43,225 nt of DNA from a virus. Both the position numbers and the translations under genes were made by a program. This document shows, in pieces, positions 38,663 to 43,225 of this stretch (position 1 is its first letter; every line of letters starts with the position of its first letter). Below the pieces are notes generated by a model. That model did not search any database. It had not been told where the DNA came from and saw nothing but the letters and a program-made list of their open reading frames with translations. The stretch lies in IMG/VR virus record IMGVR_UViG_3300042429_000865, positions 1-43,225 of that record; one strand, given 5' to 3'.

Positions 38663-38692
38663 TGCGCCTGCACGCGCACTTGTGTGTTTTTT
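38663..38692 (+). terminator. Early operon terminator
   Basis: TGCGC (38663-38667) pairs with GCGCA (38674-38678) and is followed by CTTGTGTGTTTTTT. It ends the rightward early operon just before the stop codon of the convergent integrase gene. Confidence 0.65.
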
Positions 38693-39947
38693 ATTCTGAT
38701 TTTTCGCCCGGCGCCAAAGCCTCGAGCACAGCCATCGCTTCCCGCTGCCGTGTGACGTCGGCGTGTGCGTAGATGCGTGTGGCGACTGCCGAACTATGTC
38801 CGAGCAGTTCCATCCGGGTCTGTTCGTCGACACCGGCGGCGCGCATGATGGTTGCGGTGGTGTGTCGGGCAACGTGCGGAGGGATGGTCTCCCCCTCTTC
38901 CGCCATACCGGAGTCCTGCATCAGTTGCTGCCACGCCTCCCAGTCCTTTTTAGGGGGGACCGGGCGGCCGTCGGCCAAATGAAAAACTAGGTTATGGGGG
39001 TTGGCGCCGCGGTCCAGTTCCTTGAGCGTTCGCAGCGCCGCAACCATCGGAGCTACTAGCGGTATGAATCGGCGGCCGGCGTGAGTCTTGGGGCGGGTCA
39101 GGACCAGCGAACGGTAAATCTCCCGCATTTCGAAGTCGGGCGGCACGTCCCACCGGGGAGCACTGCAGTAAGCGCCCTTCACTTTGCCGCACGGCCACGC
39201 ACCGGCCGCGCCGGCTTCGCCGCAGCCGTGGTCCCGGGTGAGTGTTTGCAACTGCCACTCCACGTCGGCGACGGCGCCGTCGAGGTCTATGCGGTCCCAT
39301 GACAGGGCCAACGCTTCGCCCTGCCGTATGCCGGTTAGGAACGCGGTAGCCCAGCGGGCGGCTTCCATAGGGTCGCGGGTGTCGGCGGCACACTTGAGGA
39401 TTGTTCGGGCTTCATCGAGGGTGAACGCGTCGCGCGGCGTGGCCGACAGTTTCGGTTTATGGACGGCGTCGCACACATTGCGGGTGAGGATTCCCTCGCG
39501 CACGGCGTCTTTGAGTGCCGCATTTAGCAGCACGTAGGACTTCTGCGTTCGGCGGCGCCCGTTGCCGAGCGCCTTGATCATCCCGCGCACGTCTTCCGGT
39601 GTGAGTGAGGCTAGCCGCTTGTCGCCGATGGTGGAGCTGATCTGCCGGACCACCACCTCGTAGCTCTGCCGCGTCGATGGCCGTATCTGGTCTCTGTGTA
39701 TCTCGTGGAGCCACCGGTCCAGCCACGCACTGACGGTGGTGGCTCGGTTGACGGTGACGCCGGCAGCCAGATCCTTTTTGAGCTCGCCGAGCTTGCGAAC
39801 ACACTCCCGGTAATCGCGGCTGTATACCTTCTTCTGCCGCCTCTTTCCGTCGGTCGATGGGGAGTCCATGATGCCCACCCACATACCGTCCGGGCGCTGG
39901 CTAATGCTCCCCTCACCTGCTGCCCGGCGTGGCCGCTTTGCCGCCAT
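38691..39947 (-). CDS. int: Tyrosine integrase
   Basis: This 418-residue integrase has a three-part layout: arm-binding N-terminal domain (1-62, GEGSISQRPDGMWVGIMD), core-binding SAM-like domain (about 70-165) and catalytic domain with R208 (TGIRQGEAL), K287 (TRPKTHAGRR), H358-x-x-R361 (PHVARHTTA), H384 (LLGHSS) and Y393 (RIYAHAD). A cysteine-containing insert CGEAGAAGAWPCGKVKGAYC (242-261) between R and K is usual in actinophage integrases. It recombines attP, which lies 136 bases upstream of its start, with a host tRNA gene. No ssrA-like degradation tag is at the C-terminus. Confidence 0.96.
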   Translation of the reverse strand: MAAKRPRRAAGEGSISQRPDGMWVGIMDSPSTDGKRRQKKVYSRDYRECVRKLGELKKDLAAGVTVNRATTVSAWLDRWLHEIHRDQIRPSTRQSYEVVVRQISSTIGDKRLASLTPEDVRGMIKALGNGRRRTQKSYVLLNAALKDAVREGILTRNVCDAVHKPKLSATPRDAFTLDEARTILKCAADTRDPMEAARWATAFLTGIRQGEALALSWDRIDLDGAVADVEWQLQTLTRDHGCGEAGAAGAWPCGKVKGAYCSAPRWDVPPDFEMREIYRSLVLTRPKTHAGRRFIPLVAPMVAALRTLKELDRGANPHNLVFHLADGRPVPPKKDWEAWQQLMQDSGMAEEGETIPPHVARHTTATIMRAAGVDEQTRMELLGHSSAVATRIYAHADVTRQREAMAVLEALAPGEKSE

Positions 39948-39983: not shown

Positions 39984-40082
39984 AAGACCTTGTATAACTA
40001 CTGTATATGTTAGGGGCGGTTGACCTGCCGCGAGCTGGTGTTATTCCGGAACCGCCCTGCTTGCGGCACGTTTACCCAGTGC

Positions 40083-40126
40083 CTTCTAATCCCTAGGTCG
40101 CAGGTTCGATCCCTGCCGGGGGCGCA
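40083..40126 (+). other. attP core: 3' half of a tRNA gene
   Basis: The sequence from CTTCTAATCCCT to the end is a tRNA 3' half: anticodon loop CTTCTAA (anticodon TCT, arginine), 3' anticodon strand, variable loop, T-arm GCAGG-TTCGATC-CCTGC (40100-40116), acceptor strand CGGGGGC (40117-40123), discriminator G. The 5' half of a tRNA is missing, and the bases before 40083 do not pair. This is the expected core of an attP that restores a host tRNA-Arg(TCT) gene on integration. Confidence 0.88.
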
Positions 40127-40423: not shown

Positions 40424-40462
40424 GCCCGCCCCGCCGACCAACTAGGGGTCAGCGGGGCGGGC
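40424..40462 (-). terminator. Lysis operon terminator
   Basis: GCCCGCCCCGC (40424-40434) pairs with GCGGGGCGGGC (40452-40462), with GACC/GGTC pairing inside. On the minus strand it is followed by CCTTTTCGTATTT, a good U-tract, so it ends the leftward lysis transcript. It may also stop the convergent gene at 40188. Confidence 0.85.
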
Positions 40463-40468
40463 ATTGTA

Positions 40469-40548
40469 TGGAGCCGCGGGGAATCGAACCCCGGTCCGGC
40501 GCGGTCCGCATGCGGGTCTCGCGCGCCGTCGAAACCAATCCCGGCCCC
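40469..40548 (-). ncRNA. tmRNA-like RNA reduced to tRNA-like domain
   Basis: This 80-nt RNA starts five bases after the last lysis-operon stop and ends six bases before the terminator. It has an acceptor stem GGGGCCG/CGGCTCC (40548-40542 with 40476-40470) with a G3-U70 pair and A73, the alanine identity set of tmRNA; a D-region GGATTGGTTTCGAC (40541-40528) without a D-stem, as in tmRNA; helix GGCGCG/CGCGCC (40527-40522 with 40503-40498) closed by an inner CCGCATGCGG; GGAC, then a T-arm CGGGG-TTCGATT-CCCCG (40493-40477). There is no room for an anticodon arm, tag reading frame or pseudoknots. CCA is not encoded. Confidence 0.75.
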
Positions 40549-41580: not shown

Positions 41581-41756
41581 TTACCGGCGCCCTTCTGCGT
41601 GAAAAAATAGCCGACAATGGTTGTCATGAATGTGTCGGCGACGGCTCCGCCGGACCAGTCCGGAACCTTCGCGCGGAAGGCCAACGAGCCGAGCCACGCG
41701 ACCGCACAGACCGCGGTTACCACCGTTGCCGGCCCCAACTTCGCGAGCCGGTTCAC
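41577..41756 (-). CDS. Small holin-like membrane protein
   Basis: This 59-residue protein is shorter than most annotation limits. GTG 41756 overlaps the holin stop (GTGA) and the stop overlaps the next ATG. It reads MNRLAKLGPATVVTAVCAVAWLGSL, then VPDWSGGAVADTFMTTIVGYFFTQKG: two membrane segments with a charged turn, as in small class II holins. It may be the real holin or an antiholin partner. Confidence 0.7.
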   Translation of the reverse strand: MNRLAKLGPATVVTAVCAVAWLGSLAFRAKVPDWSGGAVADTFMTTIVGYFFTQKGAGK

Positions 41757-42196
41757 GCGGGGTCACTCATGCTTGGATAGCCAATTGTGGACGCCTGCAC
41801 GGTATTGGGTGCCGGCGAGGCGGGCGCGTATGTCGTCGGCGTGGTATAGGCCGGCGGCGGGGGTGTCGGCGTCGGGGTCGTAGTCGTAGCCGCCGTCGGC
41901 GGCGGCGCTAAAGGGGGCAGCGGGTCCGACGAGCTGACGCCGTTCGCGTGCAGGATCGCATCCACCGCGGCCTCCTCAGCCGTATCCGGGGGAAGTTCCT
42001 CGATCTTTTCTAGAGACATGAGGAGGGCGATTGCCGCGGCCGCGGCGCCGACGCTGAGTGCCTGCTGCCAGTTGGCGCTGATGCCGCCGGCGGCACTGAC
42101 CCCGAGCACCCCGCCGGCGGCCTGAGCGAACGTGCGAACCATGCGCACGCCGGTCTGCTGCCAGTATCTGGCACTGGTGAGAATCGAATCGCCCAC
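41753..42196 (-). CDS. r1t-type holin (probable)
   Basis: This 147-residue protein was started at GTG 42196, two bases after the lysin stop; longer frames run inside the lysin gene. Residues 1-25 (SILTSARYWQQTGVRMVRTFAQAAGGVLG) and 33-56 (NWQQALSVGAAAAAIALLMSLEKI) match the R-x-RTFAQ...W..AL.VG pattern of r1t-like holins of actinophages. The C-terminal 80 residues are Pro/Thr-rich. It would form holes that release or activate the lysin. Confidence 0.78.
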   Translation of the reverse strand: MGDSILTSARYWQQTGVRMVRTFAQAAGGVLGVSAAGGISANWQQALSVGAAAAAIALLMSLEKIEELPPDTAEEAAVDAILHANGVSSSDPLPPLAPPPTAATTTTPTPTPPPPAYTTPTTYAPASPAPNTVQASTIGYPSMSDPA

Positions 42197-42198
42197 GG

Positions 42199-43098
42199 CT
42201 ACACCAGATCCGATAAGTCGACGCCGAGCTTCGCGGCCAAGCGCACGAGAATCTCGTAGTTCACGCGGCCGAGTGACGCGGCGTTGATTGCATGCCCGAG
42301 CGTTGTGTCGAGCCGGTGCGGGTCCGCGATTGCGTCGGCGAGACCGTCTTTCAGTCCCCGAGCTGGAAGCCACATCGTGACCTCGTGCGCGGTGTGGCTG
42401 ACCTTATCGTCGACCGTGTACGCGGTGTACGGCTTGGGCCCGTTTCTCCCGATGACGCACGGGATGCCGGCCGGGTTGTTCTCTGCCGCAGGCGCATTCG
42501 GCGCCGGTGCCGGTTCGGGTGCGCCGGCAACAACCTCGGGAGTGTTCGCGGCAAAGACGAAGCCATGCGGGGTTACGGCCCCACAGGCCCACTCTTTGGT
42601 AACCCAGTACCCGCCGGGCTGGAACCCGCTGTCCGCGATCCATACGGCACCCTCGGCCTCATCTACGCCCATTGCGGCCACGTAGTGGTAGACAGTATTG
42701 GAGCCGTAGTTCGGCGGGACGGAGCCTTTGGTGACGCCGTGCGAGGGGTGGTTCGACGGCGGCACAACAAGATTCAGCACACAGCCCCATCCGCCGCGGA
42801 TGGACTGAACGATGGAGCGCCACATGTTCTCCCGCTGATCTGCGGTCGGCGGGTCGTTGGGCATCCAGACGGCTTTCCAGCCGGCCTCGGGTGCGTGCAG
42901 CGACAAACCCTTGGCGATGGATTCAATGGAGGCAGTGCCGGCGGTTGTGGTCCCCATTTCCTGCGCGAGCTGGTTCTCGGTGACGCTGATTCCGTGGCCC
43001 TGCAACACAATCTGGCTGGATGCGGGCCCGCAAAAATACCCGGTCTCCTGGGTAACTGCGGCGTGCGAGTGGTCGTATGAAAGCACGATTTCGGACAA
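42199..43098 (-). CDS. Endolysin with C39-type peptidase domain
   Basis: This 299-residue endolysin has an N-terminal cysteine peptidase of the C39-like type: Q17, C23 (TGYFCGPASSQIVLQ), H138 (VYHYVAAMG) and D156 (WIADSG) form the expected catalytic set. A Pro/Ala linker (about 190-212) leads to a C-terminal domain of unknown type, perhaps cell-wall binding. TTG start 43098 with a perfect AGGAGG (43109-43104). In mycobacterial and Gordonia phages such peptidases are the N-terminal part of LysA; here no glycosidase or amidase domain is attached or encoded nearby. Confidence 0.88.
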   Translation of the reverse strand: MSEIVLSYDHSHAAVTQETGYFCGPASSQIVLQGHGISVTENQLAQEMGTTTAGTASIESIAKGLSLHAPEAGWKAVWMPNDPPTADQRENMWRSIVQSIRGGWGCVLNLVVPPSNHPSHGVTKGSVPPNYGSNTVYHYVAAMGVDEAEGAVWIADSGFQPGGYWVTKEWACGAVTPHGFVFAANTPEVVAGAPEPAPAPNAPAAENNPAGIPCVIGRNGPKPYTAYTVDDKVSHTAHEVTMWLPARGLKDGLADAIADPHRLDTTLGHAINAASLGRVNYEILVRLAAKLGVDLSDLV

Positions 43099-43225
43099 GA
43101 CGGCCTCCTAGGCATGTGGGGACGGCCTAAGGATTTGTGTCTAAATTAGGGACGGCACGGCTGCATGGTTGAGCCCAGACCGGGCGGCGGGCCGTCCCTG
43201 GCGCCGCCCGGCCTGGTGTTGTTTA
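43099..43225. repeat. Terminal duplication, identical to 1-127
   Basis: Copy of 1-127; see that entry. Removing it gives a 43,098-bp circle in which the tail operon runs into the lysis genes. Confidence 0.93.

Follow-up and report, generated by a model that had tools for sequence, protein, structure and literature searches.

The window analysed here is the whole 43,225-nt stretch of IMG/VR virus record IMGVR_UViG_3300042429_000865, whose bases 1–127 and 43099–43225 are identical; and since, in addition, contig L014 spans the end-to-end junction with 100% identity, we consider the record to be a complete circular phage genome. The minus strand carries, at 40469..40548, an 80-nt element that is a transfer-messenger RNA (tmRNA) cut back to its tRNA-like domain (TLD), with the alanine identity and the SmpB-contact GAC retained. 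Upstream and in the same direction lie the genes for an endolysin (a C39-like peptidase; 42199..43098; phrog_1519, PF13529) and a holin (41753..42373; PF16945, phrog_443), the start codon of the latter being uncertain; while 6 nt downstream on the same strand begins an intrinsic terminator (40424..40462), consisting of a 16-bp hairpin and a T-rich tail. A preliminary description of this DNA had placed the element at the end of the late transcript, six bases before a terminator, with which arrangement these features agree, the structural genes and the lysis/element cassette constituting, to judge from strand and order, a single transcript.

In its 5'-to-3' order the 80-mer comprises GGGGCCG, GGATT, GGTTTCGAC, 30 nt of P2 and cap, GGAC, the T arm, CGGCTCC, and a final A. 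The acceptor stem is formed by GGGGCCG (40542..40548) and CGGCTCC (40470–40476), the third pair being G3-U70, and the 3' strand together with the discriminator A73 (at 40469) occupies 40469..40476. The D-region GGTTTCGAC (40528..40536) represents the SmpB-contact motif of tmRNA, whose GAC and UU were each present in 147 of 147 relatives. According to the fold and to the covariation described below, the P2 helix has a 5' strand composed of CGGCGCG, a bulged C, and one G (40520..40528) and a 3' strand at 40497..40504, the final G of which (40497) doubles as the first G of the GGAC spacer (40494..40497) preceding the T arm. That arm (40477..40493; CGGGG TTCGATT CCCCG) has a 5-bp stem and is supported by the sequence, the Rfam match, and covariation. 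The P2 is closed by an apical cap hairpin, CCG-CATG-CGG (CCGCATGCGG; 40506..40515), deduced from the fold and from cap pairs that were 92% kept with compensatory changes, at the point where in a full tmRNA the mRNA-like part exits. Thus the G3-U70, A73, D-region, P2-like helix, GGAC, and T arm that the preliminary description had assigned to the minus strand were all found where it had put them. After A73 the window element has TAC, so that no CCA is encoded; in the family as a whole (147 elements) position 74 was almost always C, and the full CCA was encoded in 32.

Covariance-model searches gave a consistent identification. The Rfam cmscan matched the element to the tmRNA family RF00023 at 66.2 bits (cut-off 47; E 8.9e-24), which was the Infernal check that the preliminary description had proposed; the alignment spans model positions 1–374 and skips 302 of them, so that the mRNA-like domain has no counterpart. 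The window element therefore contains a complete tRNA-like domain with alanine identity within 80 nt, and no resume codon, tag reading frame, or pseudoknots, the absence of the last two having been correctly anticipated. No further family reached the cut-off in the Rfam scan of the window outside the element. A covariance model built from the relatives without the window (R2) recovered the element at 72.7 bits (E 5.5e-18) as its only match in the whole window. ARAGORN, likewise proposed as a check, missed the element and found no tRNA; and a tRNA-Ala was rejected in view of the lack of an anticodon arm with a 7-nt loop, in the place of which the CCG-CATG-CGG cap is found. A permuted two-piece tmRNA was also discarded, for the 5' and 3' parts stand in the standard order with the acceptor paired at 7/7 positions, and the permuted-tmRNA model RF04321 scored 20.9 bits (cut-off 47). 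Because the plain free energy of the element was no better than that of its shuffles (z 0.02), the evidence for it resides in sequence, structure, and conservation and not in stability.

The relatives were collected, mainly from viral contigs, with search patterns that specified the D-region, the GGAC, and the T loop and left the acceptor and P2 free; consequently, the conservation of the former is in part built in, whereas that of the acceptor, G3-U70, A73, and P2 is independent of the search. All the family counts refer to the matches listed and are lower bounds. The first pattern scan yielded at least 60 viral contigs with 41 distinct sequences, 40 of which had 7/7 acceptor pairs, G3-U70, and A73, the exception being one cut at a contig end; all the scans together gave at least 276 sequences, the window and phage records included, and in 231 of the 235 matches scored the acceptor was fully paired. 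After de-duplication the family contained at least 147 distinct TLD-only elements of 73–87 nt, the tag domain being absent throughout, which fell into 61 clusters at 80% identity and came from loci of 31 to 71% G+C. G3-U70 was present in 146 of the 147 (the sole exception, L110, looks degenerate), A73 in all, and the D-region GAC and the GGAC likewise in all. Nor did the relatives conceal a miniature tag frame, for the stop codons occurred in no consistent frame.

Several matches were set aside. Three from cyanobacterial genomes (L063, L066, L067) had only 4/7 acceptor pairs, L063 and L067 being permuted tmRNAs by Rfam; and L062 and L070 were excluded from membership. Among blastn matches, those confined to the 3' part in PaMx31, QDWS359, Rb1, DLP_6, XM05, and Tunturi_4 proved to be permuted tmRNAs, that in phi40:1 a full-length tmRNA, and that in Validus the 3' end of a tmRNA only, and none was counted. 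The records of the permuted tmRNAs of Pseudomonas, Erythrobacter, Stenotrophomonas, and Xanthomonas phages (L088, L089, L094, L095, L097) list no tmRNA feature. In the Tunturiibacter phage Tunturi_4 (L096 1119-1880) the permuted tmRNA (RF04321) lies directly downstream of an annotated RF-1 domain release factor gene, so that this phage has two functions for rescuing ribosomes next to each other. Microbacterium phage Armstrong, for its part, has an unannotated tRNA-like stretch of ~90 nt (L276 ~1430-1525; acceptor GGGCCTG/CAGGTCC, G3-U70, A73) that is without the tmRNA D-region, is unmatched by R2, and is common to several Microbacterium phages.

The preliminary description had asked for covariation in the acceptor and P2, and compensatory changes were found in both. 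In an alignment of 89 sequences—fitted to a model with the same structure and hence leaning towards it—96.3% of the cells paired, as against 67.5% upon shuffling and at most 53% in the slid controls; 18 of the 23 pairs had changed on both sides, and the covariation score was 0.680 versus 0.133. An ungapped count made without the model agreed, P2 being 92% paired compared with 44% when shuffled. Acceptor pairs 1–3 were invariant, the third being the G-U wobble that constitutes an alanine identity element, while pairs 4–6 varied freely with compensation, each occurring in four Watson–Crick types. In the family the P2 helix extends for ~8 bp and is followed by an A-rich internal loop and a short cap, mostly with a CANG loop and in other members with GNRA; different small hairpins therefore close P2 where the mRNA-like part would begin.

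These data bear on whether the element could be a functionless remnant: a decayed tmRNA gene, an attP, or one of the two pieces of a permuted tmRNA gene. It is common for prophages to insert into ssrA, the resulting attP carrying the ssrA 3' end, and the 3'-only match in Validus does adjoin an integrase gene. Against such an origin, the element has its two halves as well as the cap, and these covary among the 147 distinct sequences, which result refutes it for the family and disposes of the tmRNA decayed in a single isolate that had been raised as a caveat; the permuted-tmRNA model, moreover, attained only the 20.9 bits mentioned above. In the window, furthermore, a tRNA 3' half that by inspection resembles tRNA-Arg(UCU) lies at 40081-40125 on the plus strand, beside the tyrosine integrase gene (38691-39947, minus strand), and is likely the attP core of this phage, separate from the element. 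We thus regard a remnant as most improbable.

Isolates that carry the element are the Streptomyces phages Shaeky, LuckySocke, GiJojo, BRock, and pSt2308 along with Stenotrophomonas virus Jojan60, and in none of the named isolate records read was it annotated as a tmRNA. Streptomyces phage Alone3 (L092 2487-2563) has a degenerate copy in which GGCACGAC replaces the D-region and the T stem is mismatched, whereas LuckySocke is intact at the corresponding place, an instance of single-copy decay. The closest named relative of the window phage that we found, Gordonia phage Lucky10 (capsid gene, 79%), lacks a TLD-only element. The bacterial assemblies with the element comprise an Acidimicrobiales metagenome-assembled genome (MAG), a Sinomicrobium MAG, a Cellulosimicrobium, and a Mycobacterium MAG, plus three more genomes among 395 searched from one class. 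Near the bacterial copies were genes for terminase, PhoH, Mu F, a phage glycosyltransferase, a dNMP kinase, and phage replication, with no clear phage gene near the loci L069 and L284.

In 45 carrier records neither an SmpB gene nor a full-length tmRNA was found, and 44 of these had exactly one tmRNA-type match above the cut-off, of ~80 nt. Since no carrier record encodes SmpB, a host partner would be needed; and since the carriers are without a full tmRNA, which was present in all four of the bacterial genomes with the element that were checked, the two RNAs must meet. A tRNA gene was located within 2 kb of 38 of the 147 elements, and within 200 nt for 37 of these, some in large arrays beside an RNA ligase. 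This neighbourhood would suit some other use of an Ala-charged tRNA mimic, such as shielding or decoying nucleases of defence systems directed against tRNA or tmRNA, or serving along with the phage tRNA arrays. Nevertheless, 109 elements, the window's among them, had no tRNA gene within 2 kb, the anticodon arm is absent, and the SmpB-contact motif, needless for a generic decoy, is kept exactly; so that we judge such a use improbable, though less so than a remnant.

What the element retains are the requirements of alanyl-tRNA synthetase (AlaRS), EF-Tu, and SmpB, and what it is missing are those of template switching and tagging. In H. pylori tmRNA a change in the GAC (19–21), in the U of the G-U pair, or in the resume codon in each instance abolishes rescue (PMC2584231); of these essential parts the element keeps the GAC and the G-U pair and is without the resume codon, and because the resume-codon mutant fails in rescue, such an RNA is more likely to block rescue than to carry it out. 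In addition, PMC4131195 states, citing Mao et al. 2009, that TLD-only RNA strongly inhibits tmRNA "whether or not chargeable," and according to PMC11915505, citing the same work, the form found in mycobacteriophage DS6A inhibits the endogenous tmRNA of E. coli. On the basis of the retained and missing parts, the H. pylori data, and the inhibition reported in those papers, we take inhibition of trans-translation to be the likeliest function and propose, by analogy, that the element is probably a phage-encoded inhibitor RNA, an Ala-charged decoy of the host system.

Under this proposal the element would be made as the last part of the late (structural/lysis) transcript, and tRNA-processing enzymes would trim it at both ends. 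AlaRS would charge it via G3-U70, as the invariance of that pair suggests; and host SmpB and EF-Tu would bind it as they do the TLD of tmRNA, the GAC, the elbow, and the T arm having been kept. The element might then compete with the host tmRNA for SmpB and stalled ribosomes and, having no resume codon, could neither switch template nor tag. Some considerations weigh against this interpretation. Some phages need tmRNA, so that the gain from inhibiting it is not obvious, and the product of a single late gene has to hold its own against a host RNA that is abundant. Moreover, an inhibition that requires no charging, as PMC4131195 has it, leaves the strict conservation of G3-U70 unexplained by SmpB titration alone. 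Since charging is not needed for the inhibition as there described, yet the alanine pair is invariant, the charged RNA may enter the ribosome; the pattern of conservation suggests that the charged form matters beyond SmpB titration.

That same conservation of G3-U70 and A73 would be accounted for better than by pure titration if the charged RNA and SmpB took over the nascent chain as an Ala-RNA that, after translocation, was released untagged by host peptidyl-tRNA hydrolase (Pth) or an ArfB-type factor, thus sparing phage proteins and freeing the ribosomes; and a comparable role has been suggested for tagless mitochondrial tmRNAs co-occurring with SmpB (PMC11915505). The need for a resume codon in H. 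pylori rescue (PMC2584231) nonetheless speaks against this main rival, as does the inhibition ascribed to TLD-only RNA in PMC4131195 and PMC11915505. None of 44 carrier records encoded an RF-1/ArfB-type or Pth protein, so that the chain would have to be released by the enzymes of the host, which could serve for this. We accordingly hold tagless rescue to be less likely than inhibition and, on balance, unlikely. Of the functions advanced in the preliminary description, therefore, the decoy fits the inhibition reported in those papers, while the tagless entry has lost ground.

A broader proposition, on which we find ourselves evenly divided, is that phages of several bacterial phyla possess a dedicated class of Ala-charged, SmpB-binding RNAs that block trans-translation, with charging and ribosome entry under selection. 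If true, phages would widely use an RNA to counter the quality control of ribosomes. Standard tRNA/tmRNA annotation appears to overlook this gene in hundreds of phages, and trans-translation is indicated as a process on which phages act by means of RNA. That the alanine pair is so strictly conserved should permit a clear distinction between SmpB titration and ribosome entry, and a natural minimal TLD is a potential tool for trans-translation research.

With respect to known systems, the element shares with full tmRNA (ssrA; RF00023) the G3-U70 acceptor, A73, the GGNUUCGAC D-region, P2, the GGAC, and the T arm, and differs in having no mRNA-like domain, resume codon, tag, or pseudoknots and in its hairpin-capped P2 of ~8 bp. 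The tagless mitochondrial tmRNAs of jakobids and oomycetes (RF02544), to which the Rfam scan reported no match of the window element, and those of Mallomonadaceae plastids, ~65 bp in length (PMC11915505), likewise lack the tag frame; but those organelle genes replace the full tmRNA, whereas the viral gene would be used beside that of the host. The engineered TLD RNA of the SmpB crystal structure 2CZJ, which suffices for SmpB binding (PMC3985003), also connects its 5' and 3' parts through a loop that is short and stable, in that example a UUCG introduced by researchers, while the phage family naturally bears CANG or GNRA caps. Closest of all is the tmRNA of mycobacteriophage DS6A, classed as "TLD only" (tmID 11587) by Hudson et al. 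in 2014 and again in 2025 (PMC4131195, PMC11915505), likewise without a tag and reported to be an inhibitor of endogenous tmRNA; that form is a single example, given in one sentence and one table, to which our element is likened by description and not by sequence. The belief of the preliminary description that no phage RNA of this form had been described must consequently be abandoned, and the window element belongs to an already known kind. In the literature searched we came across no paper that describes the family, its covariation, the cap, or how widely it has spread, although other papers may exist; and the points that appear to be new are how large the family is, the covariation, the capped P2, and the fact that the alanine identity pair is invariant.
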